A stretch of 34,061 nt of DNA from an uncultured Rubrobacteraceae bacterium (GTDB taxonomy: Bacteria; Actinomycetota; Rubrobacteria; Rubrobacterales; Rubrobacteraceae), in assembly GCA_902806095.1 (NCBI GenBank), contig CADCVF010000045.1:1-34061 (forward strand), in the 5' to 3' direction. The translations under genes were made by a program, and so were the position numbers. The notes beneath the pieces are model-generated. The model saw only the letters and a list, made by a program, of their open reading frames with translations, did not search any database and had not been told where the DNA came from. Shown here piece after piece: positions 7,739 through 30,756 of the stretch (positions are counted from its first letter, which is position 1; the number at the start of each line of letters is the position of its first letter).

Positions 7739-8950
7739 TCACGGTCGGATAACCGTCCCGTCCAGACGCCTGACGGGAGGCCATCCCCCGTTTAGAGGAT
7801 CCTCGGGGAACGGGTACTTGGCCGCGAGAACGTCGTCTATATCCACGCCGAGCCCGGGCGAATCGGAGGGCCACATGTAACCGTCCCTGATCTCCGGGCA
7901 CCCTGGGAAGACCTCGCGGGTGCGCTCGTCGAAGACGTGCTGTTCCTGGACCCCGAAATTGTGGCACGCTAGGTCGAGTTGCAGATTCGCGGCGTGGCCT
8001 ACGGGGGAGAGGTCGCCAGGCCCGTGCCACGCCGTTCTCACGCCGAAGAACTCGCAGAGGGCCGCCAGTTTGCGGGCCATGCTCAGGCCGCCGATGTCCG
8101 AGATATGCACGCGGATGAAATCGATCAAACGCTCCCTGATGAGCGGCACGTACTCGGCCTGATTCACGAACAGCTCCCCCATGGCGATGGGCGTCGCGGT
8201 TCGCTGGCGCAGGAGCCGGAAGTACTCTGCGTCCTCGGGCGCGAACGGGTCCTCGAGGAAGAACAGGTGGTAGGGTTCGAGTTCACTGGCGAGGCCCACT
8301 GCCTGGATCGGCGGGACACGCTCGTGGACGTCGTGCAACAGCTCGACCTCGTCGCCCAAGGAGTCGCGCAGGCGTTCGAAGAGCTTCGGGATCAAACGGC
8401 AGTAGGGCGTGGGCTCCCATGGGTCACTTCCTAGTCCCAAAGGCTGCGGTCCTGGTGAGATCGTTGACCCGTACGTAGAGTAGCCTGGCACGGAGATCTG
8501 GCACCGCACGTACCGGTAACCCTCCTCCTTGTACCTTCGCGCCTCGTCCTCGACCTCGCTGATGTCGCGACCGGTGGCGTGGGCGTAGAGGGCGGCAGCG
8601 TGGCGGCACTTACCCCCGAGGAGCTGGTAGACAGGCATCCCGGCCCTTTTGCCCTTGATGTCCCACAGTGCCATGTCCACGCCGCCGAGGGCGTTGTTGA
8701 GGACGGGCCCGCCGCGCCAGTACGAGCTCACGTAGGCGGACTGGTAGACGTCCTCTATGTCGTCGGGGTCTCGTCCGACGAGGAAAGGCTTCAGGTATTC
8801 CTCGACGGCCGTGACTACGGCCAGCGGACGCTGGGTGAACGTCGCGCACCCGAGGCCGTAGAGGCCTGGCTCGTCGGTTTCGACCTTTACCACCACGAGT
8901 CTTATGCCCTCTGGCGCAGTGCAGATGGTCCTTACGTCGGAGATCTTCAA
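7739..8950 (-). CDS. Sugar-acid dehydratase, enolase superfamily (ManD type)
   Basis: A 403-residue member of the mannonate dehydratase subgroup, which makes 2-keto-3-deoxygluconate from D-mannonate or D-gluconate. Metal ligands fit D207, E233 and E259 (LLHDVHE, LEDP, MGELF). H209 and H309 (WHGPGD) are the candidate acid/base residues, and YAHATGRD near 122-129 is typical of the subgroup. The TTG start at 8950 overlaps the TGA of the upstream aldolase gene by 4 bases, so the pair is coupled. As third gene of the kdgK-aldolase-dehydratase operon it supplies the 2-keto-3-deoxy acid. ManD-subgroup enzymes differ in specificity, so D-mannonate, D-gluconate or a pentonate are all possible. From memory and unchecked, Pro after the His-Gly pair marks low-efficiency or broader members. 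Confidence 0.85.
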   Translation of the reverse strand: MKISDVRTICTAPEGIRLVVVKVETDEPGLYGLGCATFTQRPLAVVTAVEEYLKPFLVGRDPDDIEDVYQSAYVSSYWRGGPVLNNALGGVDMALWDIKGKRAGMPVYQLLGGKCRHAAALYAHATGRDISEVEDEARRYKEEGYRYVRCQISVPGYSTYGSTISPGPQPLGLGSDPWEPTPYCRLIPKLFERLRDSLGDEVELLHDVHERVPPIQAVGLASELEPYHLFFLEDPFAPEDAEYFRLLRQRTATPIAMGELFVNQAEYVPLIRERLIDFIRVHISDIGGLSMARKLAALCEFFGVRTAWHGPGDLSPVGHAANLQLDLACHNFGVQEQHVFDERTREVFPGCPEIRDGYMWPSDSPGLGVDIDDVLAAKYPFPEDPLNGGWPPVRRLDGTVIRP

Positions 8951-9816
8951 CTGCCGGCTCCCTGACTAACGGCCTGCAGCGCGGGGGTGGGATCGTAGTC
9001 CGTGGGGACTGGCACGAAGGGGGGCCTGACGGTTCCCATCCGCGCCCCGTGCCTCGCCTGCGCAAGCTTCTTGAGGACGGCGGCAGAGGCGTACTCTTTG
9101 GTCATCGTCCGCGCCTTCTGGAGCCTCTCGGAGAGGGCCGTGCCTCCGGCCTCGTCGCCTTCGCCGTGCTTTTCGTACAGTTCGAGCACCTCTTCGGGGA
9201 TAAAGTTGGCCAGGGCGGAGATAATGCCCTGGGGCCCCGTATCGAGCTTCCGCCACAGGTCGTCCTCAGTGCCTAGGAGCACGCCCTTGCCAGCTTCGAG
9301 AACGGCCTCGGCGTAGCCTTCCTCCCCGCCAGAGTCCTTGACGCCCCAGACGGGGAGTTCTCTCACGACCCGGTCGGGGACAGGGACGGCGTACTTGGGG
9401 ATGTGGTAGACGATGGCGCTATGGCCCGTAGCACCTAGCGCAGACTCGTAGAAGCGCACCATCCCTTCGGGCTCGACCGGCTTGAAGTAGTAGGGCGGCA
9501 GGACAAGCACGGCGGTAGCAGGATAGTCTTCCAGGGCGCGCAGCATCTCTACTGTCTCGGGCAGGTTGTTCTGCATGACGGCTGGGATGACCTGGATCGG
9601 CAACCCGCGCCCGAATAGCGCCTCGAGAATCCGCAGCTTCTCACCGAGCGTCACAGAAGGTCCCTCGCCGTTGGTACCGAAGGGCACGATGCCCCGCACG
9701 CCCATCTCGGCCAGCCAGGCGACGTGGTCCAGGTACGCCTCCTCATCGACCGCGAAGGAGCTGTCGTCCCTGAACGGCGTCACGTTGGCGACATAGACGC
9801 CTCCTATCTCTGGCAT
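8947..9816 (-). CDS. DHDPS-family aldolase, probably 2-keto-3-deoxygluconate aldolase
   Basis: A 289-residue class I aldolase of the dihydrodipicolinate synthase/N-acetylneuraminate lyase family. The carboxylate-binding loop is GTNGEGPS (47-54), the catalytic tyrosine Y137 lies in YHIPKY, and the Schiff-base lysine is K160 in GVKDSGG. The C-terminal RPPFVPVP resembles archaeal KD(P)G aldolases. It would cleave KDG (or KDPG) to pyruvate and glyceraldehyde (phosphate). The frame is open to 9894, but ATG 9816 has GGGAGG at correct spacing. The upstream extension only translates the AATTC repeat, so it is excluded. It sits between kdgK and the ManD-type dehydratase. Other family reactions, such as a dehydratase on ketodeoxy-glucarate, cannot be ruled out. 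Confidence 0.8.
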   Translation of the reverse strand: MPEIGGVYVANVTPFRDDSSFAVDEEAYLDHVAWLAEMGVRGIVPFGTNGEGPSVTLGEKLRILEALFGRGLPIQVIPAVMQNNLPETVEMLRALEDYPATAVLVLPPYYFKPVEPEGMVRFYESALGATGHSAIVYHIPKYAVPVPDRVVRELPVWGVKDSGGEEGYAEAVLEAGKGVLLGTEDDLWRKLDTGPQGIISALANFIPEEVLELYEKHGEGDEAGGTALSERLQKARTMTKEYASAAVLKKLAQARHGARMGTVRPPFVPVPTDYDPTPALQAVSQGAGS

Positions 9817-9836
9817 CCTTGTACCTCCCGTACTTT

Positions 9837-9921
9837 GAATTGGGAATTGAGAGTTAGGAATTTGGAACTGGTCCATCACCTTGCCCCTTCCCAATTCACA
9901 ATTCCAACTTCACAATTCTGT
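9837..9921. repeat. AATTC-type short repeats with an inverted pair
   Basis: This AT-rich spacer between kdgK and the aldolase gene holds many AATTC/GAATT words at about 7-9 base intervals. GAATTGGGAA (9837-9846) is perfectly complementary to TTCCCAATTC (9888-9897), so the transcript could fold into a hairpin within the operon. The composition differs sharply from the GC-rich surroundings. Confidence 0.55.
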
Positions 9922-9922
9922 A

Positions 9923-10873
9923 TCATCTTCCCAGAGATTTCTCATCACCGAGAAAGGCCCGCAACTCGTCCCTGTCGGGTAGGCCCTCGTAGTCCCCGAG
10001 GGTCGCGACGCTGAGGGCGCCCATCGCGTTGGCGATGCGCAGGGTCTCTTCGGCTGGCAGGTCCCACAGGTGGCCGGCTAGGTATCCTGCGGCGAAGGCA
10101 TCTCCTGCCCCCACGGGGTCGACTTCTGCGACCGTGAAAGCTGGGTGCTCCAGGACTTCGCCATCCACTAGGGCCAGGCTTCCCGAGCTGCCCGTCTTGA
10201 GAACCACCTCTTCAGGTCCTTTGCGCGCCAGCTCCCGCACCAGCATCTCGTCGTCGCTGCCCCAGAGCGCCCTCGCCTCCTCGTTCCCGGCGAAGAGCAG
10301 GTAGACGTCGGGTAGGATCTCCTCGACGAACTCTCGCGCCTCCTCCGGCCCCCACAGCTTCGAGCGGTAGTTGACGTCGAAGCTGACGCGCGCGCCAGAC
10401 GCGTTGGCTTCCCTGGCTGCCTGCAGGACAAAGGCGCGGCAGCCTTCCGAGAGGGCCGGCGTGATGCCCGTCAGGTGCACGAACTTCGCACCCCCCAGGT
10501 AGCCGGCGTCGAAGGCGTCTCTTTGCATCGTCGAGGCGGCAGACCCTAGACGATAGTAGTAGACCCGGACGTCGGAGCCTACCTGCTCCCGAAGGTACAG
10601 ACCGGTCGGTCGCTCCTTTATCCTGCGCACCTGTGATGTGTCCACCCCTTCGGCGCGGATGTGATCGAGCACCAGTTGGCCAGGCTCGTCGTCGCCGAGG
10701 TAGCCGGCCCATCCGGCGGAGAGACCGAGGCGGGAGAGGGCGATGGCGAGGTTCGACTCGGCGCCCCCGATCTTGAGCTCCAGGCCACCGGCGTGGCGCA
10801 GACGCCCTGGCCGCGGCGGAACACCGAGGACCATCGTCTCGCCTGCTGTGATCACGTCGAGGTTCCCTGTCAA
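9923..10873 (-). CDS. kdgK: PfkB-family sugar kinase, probably 2-keto-3-deoxygluconate kinase
   Basis: A 316-residue ribokinase-fold kinase. The N-terminal glycine pair is in GGAESNLAIALSRLG. The C-terminal signature DPVGAGDAFAAGYLAG (about 255-270) contains the catalytic aspartate and anion hole. It would phosphorylate KDG to KDPG with ATP. The TTG start has AGAGG six bases upstream. It is first in a three-gene minus-strand operon with the aldolase and ManD-type dehydratase. It diverges from the UlaG-like gene across a 101-base gap. A GATAAT at 10910-10915 on the minus strand is a possible -10 box without a clear -35. The name rests on context as much as sequence, since PfkB kinases have varied substrates. 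Confidence 0.75.
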   Translation of the reverse strand: MTGNLDVITAGETMVLGVPPRPGRLRHAGGLELKIGGAESNLAIALSRLGLSAGWAGYLGDDEPGQLVLDHIRAEGVDTSQVRRIKERPTGLYLREQVGSDVRVYYYRLGSAASTMQRDAFDAGYLGGAKFVHLTGITPALSEGCRAFVLQAAREANASGARVSFDVNYRSKLWGPEEAREFVEEILPDVYLLFAGNEEARALWGSDDEMLVRELARKGPEEVVLKTGSSGSLALVDGEVLEHPAFTVAEVDPVGAGDAFAAGYLAGHLWDLPAEETLRIANAMGALSVATLGDYEGLPDRDELRAFLGDEKSLGR

Positions 10874-10974
10874 CTGTGGCCTCTGCTTCGCCTCTACTCT
10901 TGCCCTGGCATTATCTTACCTGGAGTGCGACTCTGCTTGTGCTAATCTGGTCGCCATCAATTCGATAAGGGGAG

Positions 10975-11811
10975 GTGGTCGGCATCGACCTGATCGGCAG
11001 GATCGACGCGATGGAGGTAGGAGAACAGTCGCTAGCCTTCTGGGGACTCGGGCAGGTGGGTGTGGCGATCAAAGGTCCGACCGGCGTCCTGTACGTCGAC
11101 CCTTACCTCACGGATTCCGACGGCGAAGGCGGCAGTCTGCCGCGCACTTACCCTCCCCCACTCGCCCCCGCCGAGGCCACCAACGCCTCGGCCACTCTGT
11201 TGACTCACGTCCACATCGATCACACAGATCCCGACACAGTGCTGCCGCTCTCAGAGGCCTCGCCCGATGCACGCTTCGTCGCGCCTTTCACCAGCAGCGA
11301 CACGCTGGTCGAGGCGGGGCTGGACGGGGCTCGCATCGTCGTGCCCGAGGTCGGGGAGCCGGTGGAAGTCGCCGGGTCCAGGGTAACGGCCGTCCCTTCG
11401 TCCCACACGGAGTTGGAGCACGACCCCGAGCGTGGCTACCCTTATCTTGGGTACGTGATCGAGTGGAACGGAGTTGTCGTCTACCACGCCGGCGACACCG
11501 TAGTCTACGACGGCCTGATCGAAACCCTCTCAGCCTGGGACATAGACGTCGCCTTCGTGCCTATAAACGGCCGCGACTACTTCAGGACAGAGAGGGGTCT
11601 TATTGGCAACACTGATTTCCGCGAGGCCGCGGAGCTCACCGAGACGCTCGAGATCGGTCTGATCGTACCCACGCACTACGATCTGATCGAAGGCAACACG
11701 GTCGACCCGGGACACTTCGTCAGTCACCTCTACGGCCTGAACCCGATGCGCCCACACAAGCTGCTCCGTCCCGGCGAACTACTCTACTTCGTCAAAGATC
11801 CAGACGTCTAG
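10975..11811 (+). CDS. UlaG-like metallo-beta-lactamase-fold hydrolase (candidate lactonase)
   Basis: A 278-residue MBL-fold protein. The metal-binding motif is LTHVHIDHTD (HxHxDH), further ligands are in PSSHTE and YHAGDT, and the late histidine is in VPTHYD. Features such as GNTDFREAAELTETLEIGLIVPTHYDL resemble UlaG, the L-ascorbate-6-phosphate lactonase. In this cluster a sugar-acid lactonase role is attractive: sugar dehydrogenases yield aldonolactones that must open before dehydration. The GTG start at 10975 overlaps the strong SD GGGGAGG. The ATG at 11011, which begins right at the domain, is a serious alternative. It diverges from kdgK and heads the plus-strand sugar-acid run. Substrate is inference. 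Confidence 0.7.
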   Translation: MVGIDLIGRIDAMEVGEQSLAFWGLGQVGVAIKGPTGVLYVDPYLTDSDGEGGSLPRTYPPPLAPAEATNASATLLTHVHIDHTDPDTVLPLSEASPDARFVAPFTSSDTLVEAGLDGARIVVPEVGEPVEVAGSRVTAVPSSHTELEHDPERGYPYLGYVIEWNGVVVYHAGDTVVYDGLIETLSAWDIDVAFVPINGRDYFRTERGLIGNTDFREAAELTETLEIGLIVPTHYDLIEGNTVDPGHFVSHLYGLNPMRPHKLLRPGELLYFVKDPDV

Positions 11812-11886
11812 AGGGTTACGTACGGCTCGGGGCGACGCTCCCTACGCCAACCACCCCCAAAGCCTAGCGCAACGGAGCCCCGATCA

Positions 11887-11905
11887 TGATAGCTTGTACG
11901 TATCA
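11887..11905. promoter_or_regulatory. Candidate operator TGATA-N9-TATCA upstream of the keto-deoxy-pentonate dehydratase
   Basis: Perfect 5-base arms at 11887-11891 and 11901-11905, with a self-complementary ATCATGAT at 11883-11890 overlapping the left arm. It lies 20-40 bases before the ATG at 11926, where a repressor could block transcription. No matching site was found elsewhere in the window. Confidence 0.3.
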
Positions 11906-11925
11906 AGGAAGGAGGCCCCGATACC

Positions 11926-12738
11926 ATGTACCTCTCCCGCCACAGGGCCGCAGGAGGCGCCCGCTGGGCGTTGGACGGACACTATCTCCCACAGGACTTT
12001 ACGCTGGAGCGGCTGCTCGAAGTTCATGCCACCGACGTTCGAGGCTTCCTCGAAGGGCAGGCTCTAGGGGAGGCGGCTGGAGACCCTTCCCTGCCTCCTG
12101 TGGAGCCGGGACACGAGGTCTGGGCTAGCGGGGTGACATATCTGCGCAGCAGGGAGGCCCGCGAGCTGGAGTCGACGGACGCCGACGCGTACGAGAGGGT
12201 CTACGACGCCGAGCGGCCCGAGCTCTTCTTCAAGGCTCTGGGGTGGCGGGTCATTGGCCACGGGGACAGGGTACGCGTCCGCCAGGACAGCCGTTGGAAC
12301 GTGCCCGAGCCCGAGCTGGTTGTGGTCGTCAACAGCGGGATGGAGGTCGTCGGCTACACCGCTGGCAACGACGTCTCCTCACGGGACATAGAGGGTGAGA
12401 ACCCGCTGTATCTCCCGCAGGCAAAAGTCTACGACGGCTCTTGCTCTCTAGGGCCAGGAATCGTTCTCTCGGACCCTGAGGCGATGCGGGAGCTCCGTAT
12501 CACCATGAGCATCAGGCGCGGTGATGCCCTCGTCTTCGAGGACGAGATAGATATGTCGCAGATGAAGCGCCTCCCCGAGGAGCTTGCGGCCTATCTGGGC
12601 AAGGAGCTCGACTTCCCCGGCGGGGCCTTCCTGATGACCGGAACGGGCATCGTACCAGGAGACGATTTCACGCTAGAGTCAGGAGATCTGGTCCGGATCT
12701 CGGTCGGAGATCTCGTCCTTGAGAACGAGGTAGCTTAG
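11926..12738 (+). CDS. 2-keto-3-deoxy-pentonate (arabinonate/xylonate) dehydratase, FAH fold
   Basis: A 270-residue fumarylacetoacetate-hydrolase-family protein. The metal-binding pattern is NVPEPE (E128, E130) followed 19 residues later by D149 in AGNDVSSRD. This is the spacing I recall for Sulfolobus 2-keto-3-deoxy-D-arabinonate dehydratase. Other matching blocks are ELFFKA near residue 100 and LYLPQAKVYDGSCSLGP near 161-177. The reaction removes water from a 2-keto-3-deoxy-pentonate to give 2,5-dioxopentanoate. The next gene encodes an aldehyde dehydrogenase suited to that product. SD GGAAGGAGG lies about 10 bases before the ATG. It follows the UlaG-like gene after 114 bases, so it may have its own promoter. 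Confidence 0.8.
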   Translation: MYLSRHRAAGGARWALDGHYLPQDFTLERLLEVHATDVRGFLEGQALGEAAGDPSLPPVEPGHEVWASGVTYLRSREARELESTDADAYERVYDAERPELFFKALGWRVIGHGDRVRVRQDSRWNVPEPELVVVVNSGMEVVGYTAGNDVSSRDIEGENPLYLPQAKVYDGSCSLGPGIVLSDPEAMRELRITMSIRRGDALVFEDEIDMSQMKRLPEELAAYLGKELDFPGGAFLMTGTGIVPGDDFTLESGDLVRISVGDLVLENEVA

Positions 12739-12804
12739 GGCGGCTCATAGAATGGGCGAGGATTGGGTAGAGAAGGAACAGGCATTTTATCCAGGAGGAA
12801 GATC

Positions 12805-14253
12805 TTGATCGAATCACAGATAGAATCCATGAACTTCATCGACGGTGAGTGGGTCCCCGCTGACTCTGGCGAGACCTCGGAGATAGTGAACCCATCGAAC
12901 CCCTCCGAGGTACTCGGGACCACCCCCAAATCGGACAAGGCGGAGACGGAGCGGGCGATACAGGCCGCTGCTGAAGCCCTGCCCGATTGGAAGGACACGC
13001 TGCCCGCCGCCCGCGGGGCCATCTTGATGGAGGCGGCGAACATTATCGAGTCGCGCGAGGACGATCTGGCGCGGCTCATGGCGCTAGAAGCCGGCAAGCC
13101 GATGAAGGAAGCCCGCATGGAGGTGGGACGCGCGGCGAGCATCTTCCGCTACTATGGCTCCGAGGGCTGGCGCATGCCAGACATAGCCCCGCCCTCCGCG
13201 CGGCCAGGCGTGACCCACACTTCCATGAGGGAGCCCCTCGGGGTAGTCGGCCTCATCACGCCGTGGAACTTCCCGCTGGCGATACCGTCGTGGAAGACGG
13301 CGCCGGCCCTGATCTGCGGCAACACCATCGTGATGAAGCCCGCTGGCAACGCCTCCCTGAACGCAGCAGCTCTCGTCCGGATTCTCGCTGAGGCAGGCCT
13401 ACCAGACGGGGTCCTGAACATGGTGACCGGCCCCGGCGGAGCGGTCGGGGATGCGCTCGTTACCGACCCGCGCGTCAAGGGCATCTCGTTCACGGGCTCG
13501 ACGAGCGTGGGCCTCGGTATACAAGGTCGGGCCACAGGTAAGAAGGTCCAGCTCGAGATGGGCGGCAAGAACCCGTACGTCGTGATGGAGGACGCCGACC
13601 TCTCCGACGCGGCGGCCAAGGTCTCCTTCGGCGCCTTCGGCTACGCCGGCGAGAAGTGCACGGCCTCGAGCCGGGCCATCGTCGTCGAGGAGGTCTACGA
13701 CGCCTTTCTCGAAGAGCTCAAGAGTGCGACCGAGGCCATGAAGGTCGGAGACCCGCTTGAAGAGGATACGGACATAGGACCCGTCGTCAACAAGAGCCAG
13801 TACGACAGTATTCTCGAAGCCCTGGAGACGGCCAAAAACGAAGGGCGTGTCGTCCTGGAGGGCGGCGCCACGGGCTCCGAGGACGAAGGTTACTACATCG
13901 CCCCTGCCATCGTCGCCGACGTGGACAACAGCTCGGAGACCGCACAGGAGGAGATCTTCGGTCCCGTCCTCGCCGTCATAAGGGCCAGCGACTTCGACGA
14001 TGCCGTCGGGCTCGCCAACGACACCCGCTACGGGCTAACCGCAGGGATAGCGACGAAGTCTCTGCGCTACGCCTACGAGTTCAGCGCCCGCTCGGAGACA
14101 GGCCTCGTGAACGTCAACCTGCCTACCGCGGGCCTCGAGTTCCAGGTGCCTTTCGGCGGCAACAAGGAGTCGGGCGTCGGCGGGCGGGAGCAGGGTCCGG
14201 CGGCCCTGGACTTCTACTCCGCATGGAAGACCGTCTCCATGATGCCGCTTTAG
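12805..14253 (+). CDS. Aldehyde dehydrogenase, probably alpha-ketoglutaric semialdehyde dehydrogenase
   Basis: A 482-residue NAD(P)-dependent ALDH. N155 lies in TPWNFP, the general base E251 in ELEMGGKNP-type context (LEMGGK), and the nucleophile C285 in GEKCTASSR. EEIFGPVL follows near the C-terminus. Placed directly after the keto-deoxy-pentonate dehydratase, it probably oxidises 2,5-dioxopentanoate to 2-oxoglutarate, the last step of the Weimberg route. The TTG at 12805 is chosen because AGGAGG lies six bases upstream. The frame extends to 12763, and an ATG at 12829 is also possible. Succinate semialdehyde or other aldehydes are alternative substrates. Confidence 0.8.
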   Translation: MIESQIESMNFIDGEWVPADSGETSEIVNPSNPSEVLGTTPKSDKAETERAIQAAAEALPDWKDTLPAARGAILMEAANIIESREDDLARLMALEAGKPMKEARMEVGRAASIFRYYGSEGWRMPDIAPPSARPGVTHTSMREPLGVVGLITPWNFPLAIPSWKTAPALICGNTIVMKPAGNASLNAAALVRILAEAGLPDGVLNMVTGPGGAVGDALVTDPRVKGISFTGSTSVGLGIQGRATGKKVQLEMGGKNPYVVMEDADLSDAAAKVSFGAFGYAGEKCTASSRAIVVEEVYDAFLEELKSATEAMKVGDPLEEDTDIGPVVNKSQYDSILEALETAKNEGRVVLEGGATGSEDEGYYIAPAIVADVDNSSETAQEEIFGPVLAVIRASDFDDAVGLANDTRYGLTAGIATKSLRYAYEFSARSETGLVNVNLPTAGLEFQVPFGGNKESGVGGREQGPAALDFYSAWKTVSMMPL

Positions 14254-14264
14254 GGGGCGTCAGC

Positions 14265-14708
14265 GTGCGGGCGAGAGGGTTCACCCACGTCAGCGTCAGC
14301 GCCACCGATCTGGAGGAGTCGGTCCGCTTCTACAGGGACTTCTTCGGGATGGAAGAAATCCCCTCGCCCGACTTCTCAGGTCCCGTGCGCTGGCTGCGGG
14401 TGGGTGATCTGCAACTCCACCTCTTCCTGGACGAAGACCCTGCGCCGGCCAGGCATCACTTCGCGCTCGACGTGGACGACTTCGAGGCCGCGTACGAGAG
14501 GGCTGAGGAGCTTGGCGTGAGAGACGAGGGAAGCTACTCGACCGTCAGGGAGTTGCCCGACGGAGCCGTCCAGATGTACCTGCGTGACCCTGCGGGTAAC
14601 CTTGTCGAGGTCAACTGGCCCGACGTTAAGACGCTCGACCGGGAGGTCATACCGGAGATCCAGAAGATCGGCGGCGATCCCGACGCTGTCCTCTACCTCA
14701 GGCGGTAG
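14265..14708 (+). CDS. Glyoxalase/bleomycin-resistance (VOC) family protein
   Basis: A 147-residue vicinal-oxygen-chelate protein with two beta-alpha-beta-beta-beta modules. Likely metal ligands are the His in FTHVSVSATD, the His in ARHHFALDV and the Glu in NLVEVNWPD. The first module contains the family hallmark SVRFYRDFFGMEE. GTG 14265 has AGGGGG exactly seven bases upstream. The frame also runs back into the ALDH end, but that start lacks an SD. It lies 11 bases after the ALDH and is clearly co-transcribed. It could isomerise, detoxify or cleave an intermediate of the sugar-acid pathway; nothing in the sequence fixes which. Confidence 0.75.
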   Translation: MRARGFTHVSVSATDLEESVRFYRDFFGMEEIPSPDFSGPVRWLRVGDLQLHLFLDEDPAPARHHFALDVDDFEAAYERAEELGVRDEGSYSTVRELPDGAVQMYLRDPAGNLVEVNWPDVKTLDREVIPEIQKIGGDPDAVLYLRR

Positions 14709-14768
14709 CCAGGAGCGTATCGAGCCCTGTCCGGTAGGACGCTACGCCACAAAGTGAAGGAGAGATCC

Positions 14769-15254
14769 ATGACCCAGGAGCAGACGGAGCGGATCATCGA
14801 AGATCTTGGCCTCCCCGATCAGGCCATACAGGGCGACGAGTTGCCCTGGGTGCCGCAGGGAGAGAGGGTCTGGTTCAAGCCCTTGAGGTTCGACCTTGCG
14901 ACGGGGCGTTGGATCAACATCCTCAAGGTCGAGGGCTCGGGCAGGGTCAACCGCCACCGCCACACTGGCGGGCAGGTAATGGGCTTCTGCATGAAAGGCT
15001 CCTGGCACTATCTGGAGCGCGACTGGGTCGCGAGGCCTGGCACGCTCGTCTACGAGCCGCCGGGCGACATCCACACGCTCGTCGTAGACGAGGGCGTCGA
15101 GGAGATGCAGACACTCTTCATCCTCGAAGGGACGGTCCAGTACATAGACGACAACGACGACCTGATCTACCAGGACGACGTCTTCTCCAAGCTGGAGCGC
15201 TACCTGAGGTTCTGCGAGGAGCAAGGCATCGAACCCCAGGACCTACGCTACTAA
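14769..15254 (+). CDS. Single-domain cupin (ChrR / dihydroxyacetophenone dioxygenase-like)
   Basis: A 161-residue cupin. Motif 1 is NRHRHTGGQVMGF: the HxH pair is kept but the usual Glu is Gln. Motif 2 is YEPPGDIHTLV with the third His. One metal site with three His and a Gln is therefore expected. ATG 14769 has AAGGAGAGA at good spacing, so the GTG at 14754 is not used. The stop overlaps the kduD start (TAATG), which makes the two translationally coupled. Coupling to KduD suggests a role in handling deoxy-keto uronates, as the small cupin KdgF does for unsaturated uronates. This is a hypothesis only; database-style naming would be a dioxygenase. Confidence 0.7.
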   Translation: MTQEQTERIIEDLGLPDQAIQGDELPWVPQGERVWFKPLRFDLATGRWINILKVEGSGRVNRHRHTGGQVMGFCMKGSWHYLERDWVARPGTLVYEPPGDIHTLVVDEGVEEMQTLFILEGTVQYIDDNDDLIYQDDVFSKLERYLRFCEEQGIEPQDLRY

Positions 15255-16024
15255 TGGGCGTCCTCGACGACTTCAGCCTCGACGGCAAGGTCGCGCTGGT
15301 AACTGGGGCGGCGCGCGGTCTCGGGCAGGGCATCGCCACAGGCCTCGCCGAAGCCGGCGCAGACATCGTGGCCCTGGATATCGTGTCCGTAGATGAGACC
15401 GGAGGCCTGGTCCAGAACGAGGGCTGCGACTTCCACGCCATGAACGTCGACCTGCTAGAGGCCGACGCGAAGCTCGCCGCCGAAGTCGTAGAGGAGTGCG
15501 TCTCCGGGCTCGGGCGCCTCGACATACTCGTCAACAATGCGGGCATCATCCGCCGCGCTCCGGCACTGGAGTTCGGTGAGGAGGATTGGGAGAGCGTCAT
15601 AAAGATCAACCTGAGCGCAGCGTTCTACCTCTCCCAGGCCGCAGCCAAACACTTCGTCGCAGAGGGCAAGGGGGGCAAGATTATCAACACCGCCTCTGTC
15701 CTCTCCCACGAGGGCGGGGTGATCGTGCCCTCCTATTCCGCGTCCAAGGCTGGTATCGCAAACCTTACCCGCGCCCTCGCCAACGAGTGGGCGCCGTTGG
15801 GGATCAACGTCAACGCCATCGCCCCGAGCTACTTCACCACCGAACTGACGAGCGCGCTGCGCGAGGACGCAGAGAGGTCCGAGGCCCTGCTCGTCCGCCT
15901 CCCCGCCGGACGTTTCGGCGAGCCTGAGGACCTAAAGGGCGCCGTGGTCTTCCTCGCCTCAGACGCCGCGGATTACGTGCACGGTACGATCCTGCCCGTA
16001 GACGGCGGCTGGCTGGCACGCTAA
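15254..16024 (+). CDS. kduD: 2-deoxy-D-gluconate / 2-keto-3-deoxygluconate dehydrogenase
   Basis: A 256-residue classical short-chain dehydrogenase. Cofactor motif G18xxxG22xG24 lies in VTGAARGLGQG. NNAGIIRRA follows, and the catalytic Ser, Tyr and Lys are in NTASVLSHEGG and SYSASKAG. NNAGIIRRA, QAAAKHF, IAP-Y and the terminal VDGGWLAR are all diagnostic of KduD. The enzyme interconverts 2,5-diketo-3-deoxygluconate and KDG with NAD(H) in uronate breakdown. Its ATG overlaps the cupin stop by one base. It converges on the uxaA-like gene with three bases between stops. It feeds KDG to the aldolase and kinase encoded at 8947-10873. Confidence 0.88.
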   Translation: MGVLDDFSLDGKVALVTGAARGLGQGIATGLAEAGADIVALDIVSVDETGGLVQNEGCDFHAMNVDLLEADAKLAAEVVEECVSGLGRLDILVNNAGIIRRAPALEFGEEDWESVIKINLSAAFYLSQAAAKHFVAEGKGGKIINTASVLSHEGGVIVPSYSASKAGIANLTRALANEWAPLGINVNAIAPSYFTTELTSALREDAERSEALLVRLPAGRFGEPEDLKGAVVFLASDAADYVHGTILPVDGGWLAR

Positions 16025-16027
16025 CGA

Positions 16028-18823
16028 CTACATCGAAACGCCGAGCAAGCCGCGCGTGAACTGGAAGTCGGTGTTGCCGGCCTCGAATAGCCTGGGAACG
16101 TACTCGCGCGAGGCGACGGCTGCGACTCTCTCCAGCATCTGTTCGGTCCAGCCAGATGAGTCCCCTTCCAGGAGCACGTCGAGGTCTTCGGCGTGTTTCT
16201 CGAGCGTCTCGGGGTCGGAGGAGGCCTGGAGGAGTGGGATCATGCGGTGCGCCTGCAAAGGATGCCCCGCAACGTGCGCCAGCATGACCTCGACTCCGGT
16301 GGCCCCTAGCCCGGTCGCAGTCTCGACCCAATGGTCCGTTGGCGCTTCCATGACGTGAAGACCCTGCTTGCCCACGGGGACAGCCTGCCCGTAAGCGAGG
16401 GTATTCTCTAGGGGACGATCGCCGAGCACGGCCTCCAGGTAGGCCGGCGAAGAGAGGAGCGCAGCCCTCTCGGGTACGACGACCGTGCCGCCCGAGCCCA
16501 CGACGGCGAGCGTTATCTCAGCGAGACTCCTGGCGGCCTCATCCGAGATGGGGCCGGAGGCGTACAGACCCAATCGCAGGGCTTCCGGGCCTGCGCCTTC
16601 GTACTCCAGCACTTCGGTGCTATCCAGGGTTTCGGTAAACCAGTCCTCGACCTTCGCGACGACGCTGTCTATACCGCCGTCGAGCTGGACACTCGCCCAC
16701 CCAAAACGACTCGGATCGAGGCCCGCCTCTTCGAGGCGGTTTCTGAAGTAGTCGTTGTGGGTCTTCTCGCAGCCGTGTTCGAGGAGCAACCCGAACCTCA
16801 CGCTGGGGCTTGCGAGGTGGCCGATCAAGGTGCGGGAGTAGATCGTTTCGGCCGAGCCGGCGGAGACGCCGCAGCCCTCTGTGTGGGGCAGGGCGACGAA
16901 GCGGGTTACTTTACCCTGTGTGGCATCGCGTTCGTTCAGACGGTTAGCGATGCGGCGTGAGATCTGACCCGAGCAAAGGCTCGTCGGCATGATGAGGCCC
17001 ACTTGATCCGAGACCGGCCCACGCCCACTCCCTATAGCCTCGAAGGAGAATTCTACGTCAGGAGCGTCGCCTTTCACGGGCAAAGGCTCGCCTTCCGGTT
17101 CCTGCTCGTTTTCGAGTTGGTTCAGGTTCTCGTCGCCCGTCTGCTTCCAGTCGCGCCAGATCGAGACCTGGGCGTGGCCTGCACGCTCTCCGACGGTCAT
17201 CTCGCCGGAAGCGGCCCTGAGCGTCCGCTCGAAAGTCTCGCGGCCGAGATCATCCATCGGGGTGCTGTCCAGGTAGGCGCCGGCGTTCACGTCCATGTCT
17301 TTGGACAAGAGTTCGTAGCGGCCTGTGGTGGTGACGAACTTTATGGTCGGGACGAAGGGGAAGTTGGTAATGGAGCCGTTACCTGTGGTGAAGAAGATCA
17401 TGTTAGCCCCTGAGGCGACCTGCCCGGCGACGCTCTCCAGGTCGTTGCCAGGGCTGTCCATAAAGTAGAAGCCGCCTTCGTCCATCCGCTCGGCGTACTC
17501 GATAATGTGGTCGATCCGCACGTCAGGGTGCTTCTTCATCGCTGCCCCGATGGACTTGATGGAGATGTTGTAGAGACCGCGGTAGTTGTTCCCTCCTGAG
17601 GGATTGTCTTCGGCCGTATGCCCGTGCCAGGAGACGCGTTCTTTGAACCGTTCGACTGTAGAGAGGAAGCGCTGTGCAGTTTCGAGGTCTTTGACGTTGT
17701 TGAGGACGTAGTGCTCGGCCCCGATCAACTCGTCCGTCTCGGCTAAATTGGCGATGCCGCCGTTCCTGACTACCTCCGCGCTCACCCACGCCACCAGCGG
17801 GTTCGCGGAGACACCTGAGAAGGCGTCGGACCCACCGCACTGGAGTCCTATCTTGAGCTCCGAGGCCGGCTCCTCGGTACGCCGCGCAGCGTCCACCTCC
17901 TCGAGCCAGCCTCGCACCACGGATTCGGCCCGTTCGAGATCCCGCCTGAAGCCCCCTTCCAGGCTCATGAACTCGTGCGGCAAGTCGTCCACCGGATAGC
18001 CGTGCTCTTCCAGGTAGGCCCCGAGCATCGTGTTCGTCACGGCCTCCTCGCCGCCGTGGTCGAGCACGAGCACGGCCCCGACGTTAGGGTTGACCATAAA
18101 GCCGCTCAGGGTCCGCAATAGCAAGTCCAGGTTGTTCGGCTTGCGATCCTCCCCACCCTCCGTGTGGGCGACGCAGACTATGCCGTCTACGTTCTCGTAG
18201 GCGTCTGCGATGCCGTTCATCTCGAACTCCAGCGCCCTGACGAACCCGGTGAGCCTCGACGTGACGCCCATCACGACTATGTAGTTACGCGTCCCTACGC
18301 CCCTGCCCAGACCGCGCCTGTAGCCCATAAAAGTGCGCGGCTCCTCGTGCAGAGGTACCTGCTCGCCAGGCCGGAAGCCCTCCTTGTCGAGGACGTAGGG
18401 TGCAAGCTCCGCGTCGCTGAAGTTCGGCTCTTCGGGCAGGCTCAGGCCGATCTCATCCTGCCCTCCTGGGACGCGTCCCCCACCCTGGTCCGAGGTCCCT
18501 TCAGGATCCTCCTCACGTCGGGGAGAAGCCTTGAAGCGTTCGCGCAGCACGCGCAGGATCTTCTCGTTGCAAGCGTAATCGCCGGGCGCGATGTCTTTCA
18601 CCGCCCGCCCGAAGCGCAGGCCCCAGGAGAGCAGGTCTTCCCCTTCCGCTATCGGCTCGACGGCGAAGCGGTGGCCTTCGAGGACCGTGTGACCGACCGC
18701 AAACTCCGAGCCTTCACGGGATACGCGCGTCCCCGCCTCCAGCCTGCGGGTCGCCATTGCCACGTTGTCACCCGGCGCCGGGAGGCGTCCGATCTCCCGA
18801 AAGTCCCATACTCGTTCCTTCAC
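16028..18823 (-). CDS. Altronate dehydratase-like protein with two tandem UxaA modules
   Basis: A 931-residue protein, nearly twice normal UxaA length (about 500). Residues 1-95 form a SAF-type N-terminal domain, and 96-160 are a charged linker. Residues 166-560 form UxaA module 1, and 608-931 form a diverged second module. Module 1 keeps the C-terminal-half motifs QCGGSD (328-333), NPSGGN, DSPGND (456-461) and TTGNGS (479-484). It has lost the N-half cysteines: HTEGG (220-224) and DHGGEE (255-260) replace HTYGC and GLGCEN of E. coli UxaA. Module 2 is the reverse. It keeps PTSLC (C617), HTEGC (C651) and EHGCEK (C685) but has lost CGGSD, PGND and TGNG. It likely dehydrates altronate or a related acid to KDG, with an active site built from both modules. 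GTG 18823 has GGAGG at seven bases. Confidence 0.8.
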   Translation of the reverse strand: MKERVWDFREIGRLPAPGDNVAMATRRLEAGTRVSREGSEFAVGHTVLEGHRFAVEPIAEGEDLLSWGLRFGRAVKDIAPGDYACNEKILRVLRERFKASPRREEDPEGTSDQGGGRVPGGQDEIGLSLPEEPNFSDAELAPYVLDKEGFRPGEQVPLHEEPRTFMGYRRGLGRGVGTRNYIVVMGVTSRLTGFVRALEFEMNGIADAYENVDGIVCVAHTEGGEDRKPNNLDLLLRTLSGFMVNPNVGAVLVLDHGGEEAVTNTMLGAYLEEHGYPVDDLPHEFMSLEGGFRRDLERAESVVRGWLEEVDAARRTEEPASELKIGLQCGGSDAFSGVSANPLVAWVSAEVVRNGGIANLAETDELIGAEHYVLNNVKDLETAQRFLSTVERFKERVSWHGHTAEDNPSGGNNYRGLYNISIKSIGAAMKKHPDVRIDHIIEYAERMDEGGFYFMDSPGNDLESVAGQVASGANMIFFTTGNGSITNFPFVPTIKFVTTTGRYELLSKDMDVNAGAYLDSTPMDDLGRETFERTLRAASGEMTVGERAGHAQVSIWRDWKQTGDENLNQLENEQEPEGEPLPVKGDAPDVEFSFEAIGSGRGPVSDQVGLIMPTSLCSGQISRRIANRLNERDATQGKVTRFVALPHTEGCGVSAGSAETIYSRTLIGHLASPSVRFGLLLEHGCEKTHNDYFRNRLEEAGLDPSRFGWASVQLDGGIDSVVAKVEDWFTETLDSTEVLEYEGAGPEALRLGLYASGPISDEAARSLAEITLAVVGSGGTVVVPERAALLSSPAYLEAVLGDRPLENTLAYGQAVPVGKQGLHVMEAPTDHWVETATGLGATGVEVMLAHVAGHPLQAHRMIPLLQASSDPETLEKHAEDLDVLLEGDSSGWTEQMLERVAAVASREYVPRLFEAGNTDFQFTRGLLGVSM

Positions 18824-30015: not shown

Positions 30016-30756
30016 CTACAACAGCGCCCAGGCCGCGGTCGTGACGCCCAGAGTGCCGGTCAGGATCACGAGCCCCAGAGTGATCGCCCGGAACGCCCTC
30101 TCGGAGACGCGCCCAAGGAGCGCCGTCCCGATGGCCTTTCCGGCGATGGCAGCCGGAATGAGCAGGAGCCCCAGCGAGATTTCCGAGCCGTCCACAAGGC
30201 CGCGGAAGGCCAGGACCACGAGCCCGACGACGCTTATGGGCAAGAAGTACAGTGCGCTCGTCCCCCTGAATTCGTGCTTAGGGAGGTCGCGCGAGGCCAG
30301 GAGCAGCACTATCGGGGGACCGGCGAGCCCCGTCGAGGTCGAAAGCGCCCCGCTGGCCGAACCAGCGACGAGGGTCCCCCATCGCGTGCCCGTACCAGGC
30401 AGCCTGATGTCCCTGACCAGGAGCAGTGCCGAGAAGACGACGATTACGCCGACCCCGAGGCGCACGTAGTCAGGATCGATAATGCGCAGTACCTCGACAC
30501 CCAGCGCGACCCCGAAGAGAGCAGGGATCAGGAGAGCCAAGGCGAGCCGTCGCCTGGCTTCGCGCCAAGAATCCCACACCACGGCGCTGTTTATAACGAT
30601 CGAGAAGATAGCCGTAAGCACGACGACCGTTTTGGGCTCGTAGACGAAGAGGAGTATCGGCGTACTGATCAGGGCCAGCCCGAAGCCCGTTAGCCCCGTG
30701 ACGAGCCCTGCGAGCAACGCCGCAAAGAGCGCCACGAGCAGTGCCGCGCTCAACAA
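30016..30756 (-). CDS. TauE/SafE-family permease
   Basis: A 246-residue membrane protein with seven or eight helices in two related halves. The family glycine motifs are [19 protein letters not shown] in the first half and [19 protein letters not shown] in the second. Members export sulfite, sulfoacetate or other organic anions. The TTG start has GGAGGG eight bases upstream; a TTG one codon later is equivalent. It lies downstream of the siroheme decarboxylase on the same strand, separated by the 7-mer repeat. Both TauE-type transport and siroheme touch sulfur or nitrite metabolism, but a link is only suggestive. Confidence 0.8.

Follow-up and report, generated by a model that had tools for sequence, protein, structure and literature searches.

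A fused double UxaA/GarD-type protein from a Rubrobacteraceae bacterium with a complementary split of the family cysteines between its two modules

The stretch of DNA analysed here (34,061 nucleotides from an uncultured Rubrobacteraceae bacterium, hereafter referred to as the window) contains on its minus strand an open reading frame for a protein of 931 amino acids, which starts with a GTG codon at position 18823 and whose stop codon ends at position 16028. The coordinates and the number of residues agree with those given in a sequence-only reading of the same DNA, and the translation of the open reading frame assigns it to the minus strand. The predicted protein and its parts are as follows:

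16028..18823, minus strand: predicted fused double UxaA/GarD-type dehydratase (open reading frame and translation; full-length relatives in at least nine phyla)
18536..18823, minus strand: SAF (beta-clip) domain, residues 1-96, a single copy per chain (phmmer, Foldseek, SAF alignment)
17894..18343, minus strand: GD_AH_second domain of module 1, residues 161-310, without Cys1-3 (Pfam PF04295, 87.5 bits)
17144..17866, minus strand: GD_AH_C domain of module 1, residues 320-560, with all catalytic motifs (Pfam PF20629, 275 bits)
17837..17839, minus strand: C329, corresponding to Cys4, in QCGGSD of module 1 (Cys in 82/82)
17024..17143, minus strand: variable linker between the modules, residues 561-600 (mean pairwise identity 0.30, 0 invariant columns)
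16619..17023, minus strand: GD_AH_second domain of module 2, residues 601-735, with Cys1-3 (Pfam PF04295, 50.7 bits; hhalign 99.2%, E = 8.5e-19)
16973..16975, minus strand: C617, corresponding to Cys1, in PTSLC of module 2 (Cys in 82/82)
16871..16873, minus strand: C651, corresponding to Cys2, in HTEGC of module 2 (Cys in 82/82)
16769..16771, minus strand: C685, corresponding to Cys3, in EHGCEKTHNDY of module 2 (Cys in 82/82)
16031..16582, minus strand: degenerate GD_AH_C domain of module 2, residues 748-931 (hhalign 98.8%, E = 9e-16 to canonical proteins)

The fused gene adjoins a sugar-acid catabolic cluster (window positions 7739-16024), which also holds a glyoxalase-fold protein and a cupin in addition to these genes:

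7739-8950: mandelate-racemase/enolase-type enzyme (reading of the sequence, without a family search)
8947-9894: DHDPS-family aldolase/dehydratase (reading of the sequence, without a family search)
9923-10873: sugar kinase resembling 2-keto-3-deoxygluconate kinase (reading of the sequence, without a family search)
10975-11811: metallo-beta-lactamase-fold protein
11926..12738, plus strand: fumarylacetoacetate-hydrolase (FAH)-family protein (PF01557)
12763..14253, plus strand: aldehyde dehydrogenase, best match alpha-ketoglutaric semialdehyde dehydrogenase (NF042993, 523 bits, below the cut-off of 770)
15224..16024, plus strand: KduD-type SDR, convergent with the fused gene (TIGR01832, 347 bits, above the cut-off)

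No sulfite exporter was found among the genes that flank positions 16028-18823; a TauE-like gene is located 11 kb away (30016-30756).

Both modules described in the sequence-only reading were recovered, while the N-terminal SAF domain had been missed. Residues 1-96 match the SAF fragment of altronate hydrolase (3k3s_A; phmmer E = 1e-7), and the domain aligns with 3k3s with a TMt of 0.8 in Foldseek. In module 1, the Pfam envelopes comprise residues 167-310 for GD_AH_second, which scores above the curated cut-off, and residues 320-559 for GD_AH_C, which is the single strong occurrence of this domain in the chain. The SAF domain and the two Pfam domains of module 1, both of which pass their cut-offs, place the protein in the UxaA/GarD superfamily, and the score against the galactarate dehydratase equivalog TIGR03248 (182.8 bits versus a cut-off of 730.85) places it outside of GarD.

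Module 2 (residues 601-931) is a shortened relative of the UxaA/GarD module. Its GD_AH_second domain (PF04295) also scores above the curated Pfam cut-off. GD_AH_C is weak when module 2 is scanned alone (22.7 bits versus a cut-off of 26.8), and it takes a profile comparison to identify this C-domain (98.8%, E = 9e-16 to canonical proteins). In profile-profile alignments, module 2 matches canonical UxaA/GarD proteins from end to end (99.9%, E = 4e-36) and module 1 (99.9%, E = 2e-31), and a model of module 2 alone (pLDDT 91) has a TM-score of 0.71 to the GarD structure. Separate profile alignments of each module thus agree with the assignment of both to the UxaA/GarD family, and the profile-profile matches and the TM-score of 0.71 rule out that module 2 belongs to an unrelated family.

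According to a study of the D-arabinonate dehydratase (PMC6336799), in which Cys-to-Ser mutants were assayed, four cysteines are conserved across the UxaA/GarD superfamily except in the sulfo-lyase, and these four residues are proposed to hold one iron in a rubredoxin-like site. In our alignment, all of the intact canonical enzymes, including UxaA and GarD from E. coli, have cysteines at the four positions (CCCC), whereas the sulfo-lyase-like rows lack Cys1-3; three Actinomycete rows of the canonical alignment represent wrong-frame or misread open reading frames and were excluded from the trees. Module 1 has R190, G224, G258 and C329 at the positions of Cys1-4, and module 2 has C617, C651 and C685 followed by an alanine. 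Each fused chain thereby contains one copy of each family cysteine, three in module 2 and one in module 1, and this 3+1 partition is identical in all 82 fused proteins aligned, from at least nine phyla. Since the four residues are cysteines in 82/82 proteins and the complementary positions in 0/82, the partition is not due to chance. Neither module holds all four cysteines, which are found together only when the entire chain is considered. This bars the fused protein from the canonical subgroup and not from the superfamily, since the four-cysteine set is also missing from the sulfo-lyase (PMC6336799), which is accepted as a member.

The motifs listed in the sequence-only reading are all present in the translated sequence. 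Module 1 keeps QCGGSD, NPSGGN, DSPGND and TTGNGS, and the alignment shows that their counterparts in module 2 have changed to YASGP, EAPTDH and HVAGHP, as had been claimed, with the NPSPGN stretch being deleted rather than merely altered. Cys4 and the NPSPGN, PGND and TGRGS motifs have all been lost or deleted from the C-domain of module 2. A TDFQFTRG-like end, which had been ascribed to both modules, was not seen in module 1, which terminates in QVSIWRDWKQT. The HTEGG motif in the second domain of module 1 (residues 220-224, window positions 18152-18166) is nearly invariant despite the absence of the iron cysteine, which indicates that this domain is not simply decaying and that some other constraint has been kept.

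The C-domains of the two modules represent the extremes of conservation among the domains of the fused proteins. The C-domain of module 1 is the most conserved (mean pairwise identity 0.73, invariant columns 75/241) and that of module 2 the least conserved (0.47, 12/184), a contrast that fits a division of labour between them. The second domains of the two modules differ little overall (0.56 and 0.59), and the contrast between these sits in the cysteine loops. The EHGCEKTHNDY motif of module 2 is invariant in 64/64 homologues, in contrast to the divergence of the remainder of this module.

A scan of GTDB genomes identified 171 relatives of the query. Almost all of the best 80 of these 171 are full-length matches, and these 80 include members of the Bacillota, Chloroflexota, Actinomycetota, Latescibacterota, Poribacteria, Gemmatimonadota, Tectimicrobiota, Acidobacteriota and Deinococcota, i.e., at least nine phyla. 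A frameshift or an assembly artefact is excluded by this recurrence of the fused frame. An additional relative (42%) is encoded by a Pantoea plasmid; a full-length relative was not found among phage records. The fused gene is the sole gene with a GD_AH_second domain (PF04295) in this genome and in seven further Rubrobacteraceae genomes, and also in five out of another eight genomes that were searched. The protein cannot depend on a canonical partner in these genomes, which for them excludes a partnership with a canonical UxaA and makes it plausible that the pairing of the two modules is obligate.

The same complementary loss (xxxC in one large half and CCCx in the other) was found in operons from haloarchaea and Alicyclobacillus, which differ from the fused protein in that the two large halves and the SAF subunit are encoded by separate genes. 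Five loci on haloarchaeal plasmids contain three-gene operons in the order large1-SAF-large2, with proteins that are annotated only as UxaA family hydrolases. At the four cysteine positions, the haloarchaeal large1 reads ATTC (or TTTC, ATIC), while large2 reads CCC with S, A or, in one case, C at the fourth position, and has lost the C-half motifs in the same manner as module 2. In the Alicyclobacillus operon (locus L152, 2844-5448), large1 reads EVHC and large2 reads CCCF, with the SAF gene located between them. The operon is followed by an FAH-family gene with 50% identity to its counterpart in the window. The Alicyclobacillus genome with this operon (G176) also carries a fused gene, and its large1 groups with UxaA proteins from Priestia and Metabacillus.

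The phylogenetic trees placed module 1, the haloarchaeal large1 and the Alicyclobacillus large1 apart from each other. Trees in which all three Cys-poor catalytic halves were held together were rejected (AU p = 0.008), which excludes that the fused and split pairs all descend from one event, and trees that held the haloarchaeal and Alicyclobacillus proteins together were also rejected (AU p = 0.016). Holding module 1 together with the Alicyclobacillus protein was not firmly rejected (p = 0.064, with the trait columns dropped), and for module 1 together with the haloarchaeal proteins the values were 0.006 with the trait columns kept and 0.109 and 0.134 with these columns dropped. At least two origins of the complementary loss are therefore well supported, and there were probably three, one each for the fused, the haloarchaeal and the Alicyclobacillus proteins. 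A sister relationship between modules 1 and 2 was not rejected, with module 2 placed on a very long branch and its position being unsure. The shared family profiles, the fixed 3+1 partition and the occurrence of the same split in separate-gene pairs support the earlier suggestion of a duplication followed by mutual degeneration, and the strongest reason to believe that both of the retained halves work together is that the split arose convergently.

A full-chain model built with AlphaFold2 from 64 homologues has a pLDDT of 87.6 and a pTM of 0.89, which is too high for two independently floating modules; the model places both as one unit. Its TM-score to GarD (6u7l), by target length, is 0.86 in Foldseek. 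The segments with low confidence are residues 407-410 (NPSGGN), residues 652-654 after C651 and the C-terminal tail (925-931), and thereby include conserved motif loops, as expected if a metal or a ligand is missing from the model. Mutual information between the modules showed no enrichment for the module 1 C-domain paired with the module 2 second domain, in an alignment with an Neff of 39, which is too few sequences to be informative. Foldseek also produced weak matches of the full chain and of module 2 to Ni,Fe CO dehydrogenases (E ~1e-4, TM 0.1-0.25), which probably represent background from a generic Rossmann-like signal.

Compared to known systems, the fused protein is a variant within a known enzyme family and not a new kind of system. 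The D-altronate dehydratase UxaA from E. coli and the galactarate dehydratase GarD (6u7l) resemble module 1 in having the SAF, second and C-domains in this order with all motifs; they consist of a single module with four cysteines in one chain, as opposed to two modules with a 3+1 split. The sulfolactate sulfo-lyase SuyAB of the same superfamily is heteromeric, with a SAF and a large subunit, of which the latter lacks Cys1-3 like module 1, but it has no Cys-bearing second large subunit or module. The two SuyB-like genes examined adjoin sulfite exporters, and the fused protein is set apart from SuyB by the Cys1-3 residues that are kept in module 2. The D-arabinonate dehydratase C785_RS13685, described in PMC6336799 as a UxaA/GarD member with four Fe cysteines, is also encoded beside genes for FAH-family and dehydrogenase proteins, as is the fused protein, and differs from it in that a single module holds the four cysteines. 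Searches of the open literature did not reveal any account of a UxaA that is doubled or split in this complementary manner.

The sugar-acid neighbours, together with the FAH and dehydrogenase context of the D-arabinonate dehydratase, favour the dehydration of an aldonate to a 2-keto-3-deoxy acid as the most likely reaction. The neighbouring genes differ among the relatives, for which reason the substrate is not fixed. The product would be further processed by the FAH-family and aldehyde-dehydrogenase enzymes encoded next to the fused gene.

We propose, with a probability of about three in four, that the fused protein is a pseudo-heterodimer formed within a single chain, in which one Fe site works and the other is dead, and that it catalyzes the dehydration of an aldonate. 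The two homologous modules with complementary losses are what is expected of a pseudo-heterodimer, and such a pseudo-dimer probably arose in the UxaA/GarD superfamily by gene duplication and fusion. Module 1, with its SAF, second and C-domains, would provide the substrate and base motifs as well as the fourth cysteine (C329), the second domain of module 2 would provide the three iron cysteines (C617, C651, C685), and the C-domain of module 2 may be a structural remnant. If the packing of the modules resembles that of the subunits in a UxaA/GarD homodimer, the C-domain of module 1 and the second domain of module 2 would come together to form one composite, iron-binding site per chain, while the symmetric counterpart would be dead and without any parts. 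One live and one dead site is the logic of other fused or heterodimeric enzymes, such as the mammalian adenylyl cyclase.

The SuyB-like relatives count against a composite site in that module 1 might function without Cys1-3. It is conceivable, albeit unlikely, that module 1 is the enzyme on its own, as thought for SuyB, with module 2 serving as an appendage for structure, regulation or redox sensing whose cysteines are incidental. None of the C-half motifs is missing from module 1, and there are relatives, of the SuyB type and other single proteins, that have no Cys1-3, as PMC6336799 also states for the sulfo-lyase. An appendage does not easily account for the invariance of Cys1-3 (82/82) and EHGCEKTHNDY (64/64) amid the divergence of module 2, nor for a 3+1 partition that makes up the exact four-cysteine set of the family and recurs in split operons, and the SuyB-like enzymes have no Cys-bearing partner. 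A site could also be completed between two fused chains in a homodimer, by the module 1 C-domain of one chain and the module 2 second domain of the other. Canonical GarD is reportedly dimeric in crystals, which would be in line with such an arrangement, but the two modules of one chain are packed confidently by AlphaFold2 and their being fused already speaks for 1:1 pairing in cis, and we regard a site between chains as slightly less probable than a module 1 that acts alone. The least probable option is a second, distinct Fe or Fe-S centre in module 2 that is unrelated to the active site of module 1; three cysteines alone could ligate a cluster, but the invariance of Cys4 in module 1 and its absence from module 2 are the opposite of what two centres would need, and there is no known precedent for this in the UxaA/GarD family.

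If the pseudo-dimer has a composite site, an ordinary UxaA/GarD enzyme would complete its iron site across two subunits. We consider it somewhat more probable than the opposite that half-sites were lost in a complementary manner on at least two and probably three occasions, and that this reveals a superfamily-wide assembly of the iron site across the dimer interface, where one protomer contributes Cys1-3 and the other contributes Cys4 and the substrate pocket. UxaA/GarD proteins are widespread sugar-acid enzymes for which the assembly of the iron site is unsettled and the four-cysteine site only proposed; the sole full-length structure, that of GarD (6u7l), is said to have been reported with calcium. 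The natural 3+1 split of the ligands and its repetition in unrelated split operons provide a sharp prediction for a site across the dimer interface. Moreover, many of the proteins that are annotated as "UxaA family hydrolase" are probably obligate halves, and one that is cloned alone would be inactive.

Other UxaA-like genes were observed in Alicyclobacillus. A second paired large1/SAF/large2 locus (L153, 1992-4299) encodes two large proteins that both lack Cys1-3; the pair is SuyB-like, with a second half that has no obvious catalytic role. It counts against the composite-site reading in that a paired arrangement may also be maintained on other grounds. At another locus (L154, 1825-3083), a nearly identical duplicate of the Alicyclobacillus large2 gene lies with its SAF gene and has no large1 nearby. 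Two single UxaA-like proteins without Cys1-3 (L155, 2748-4079; L156, 1613-2812) are candidates for the SuyB type.
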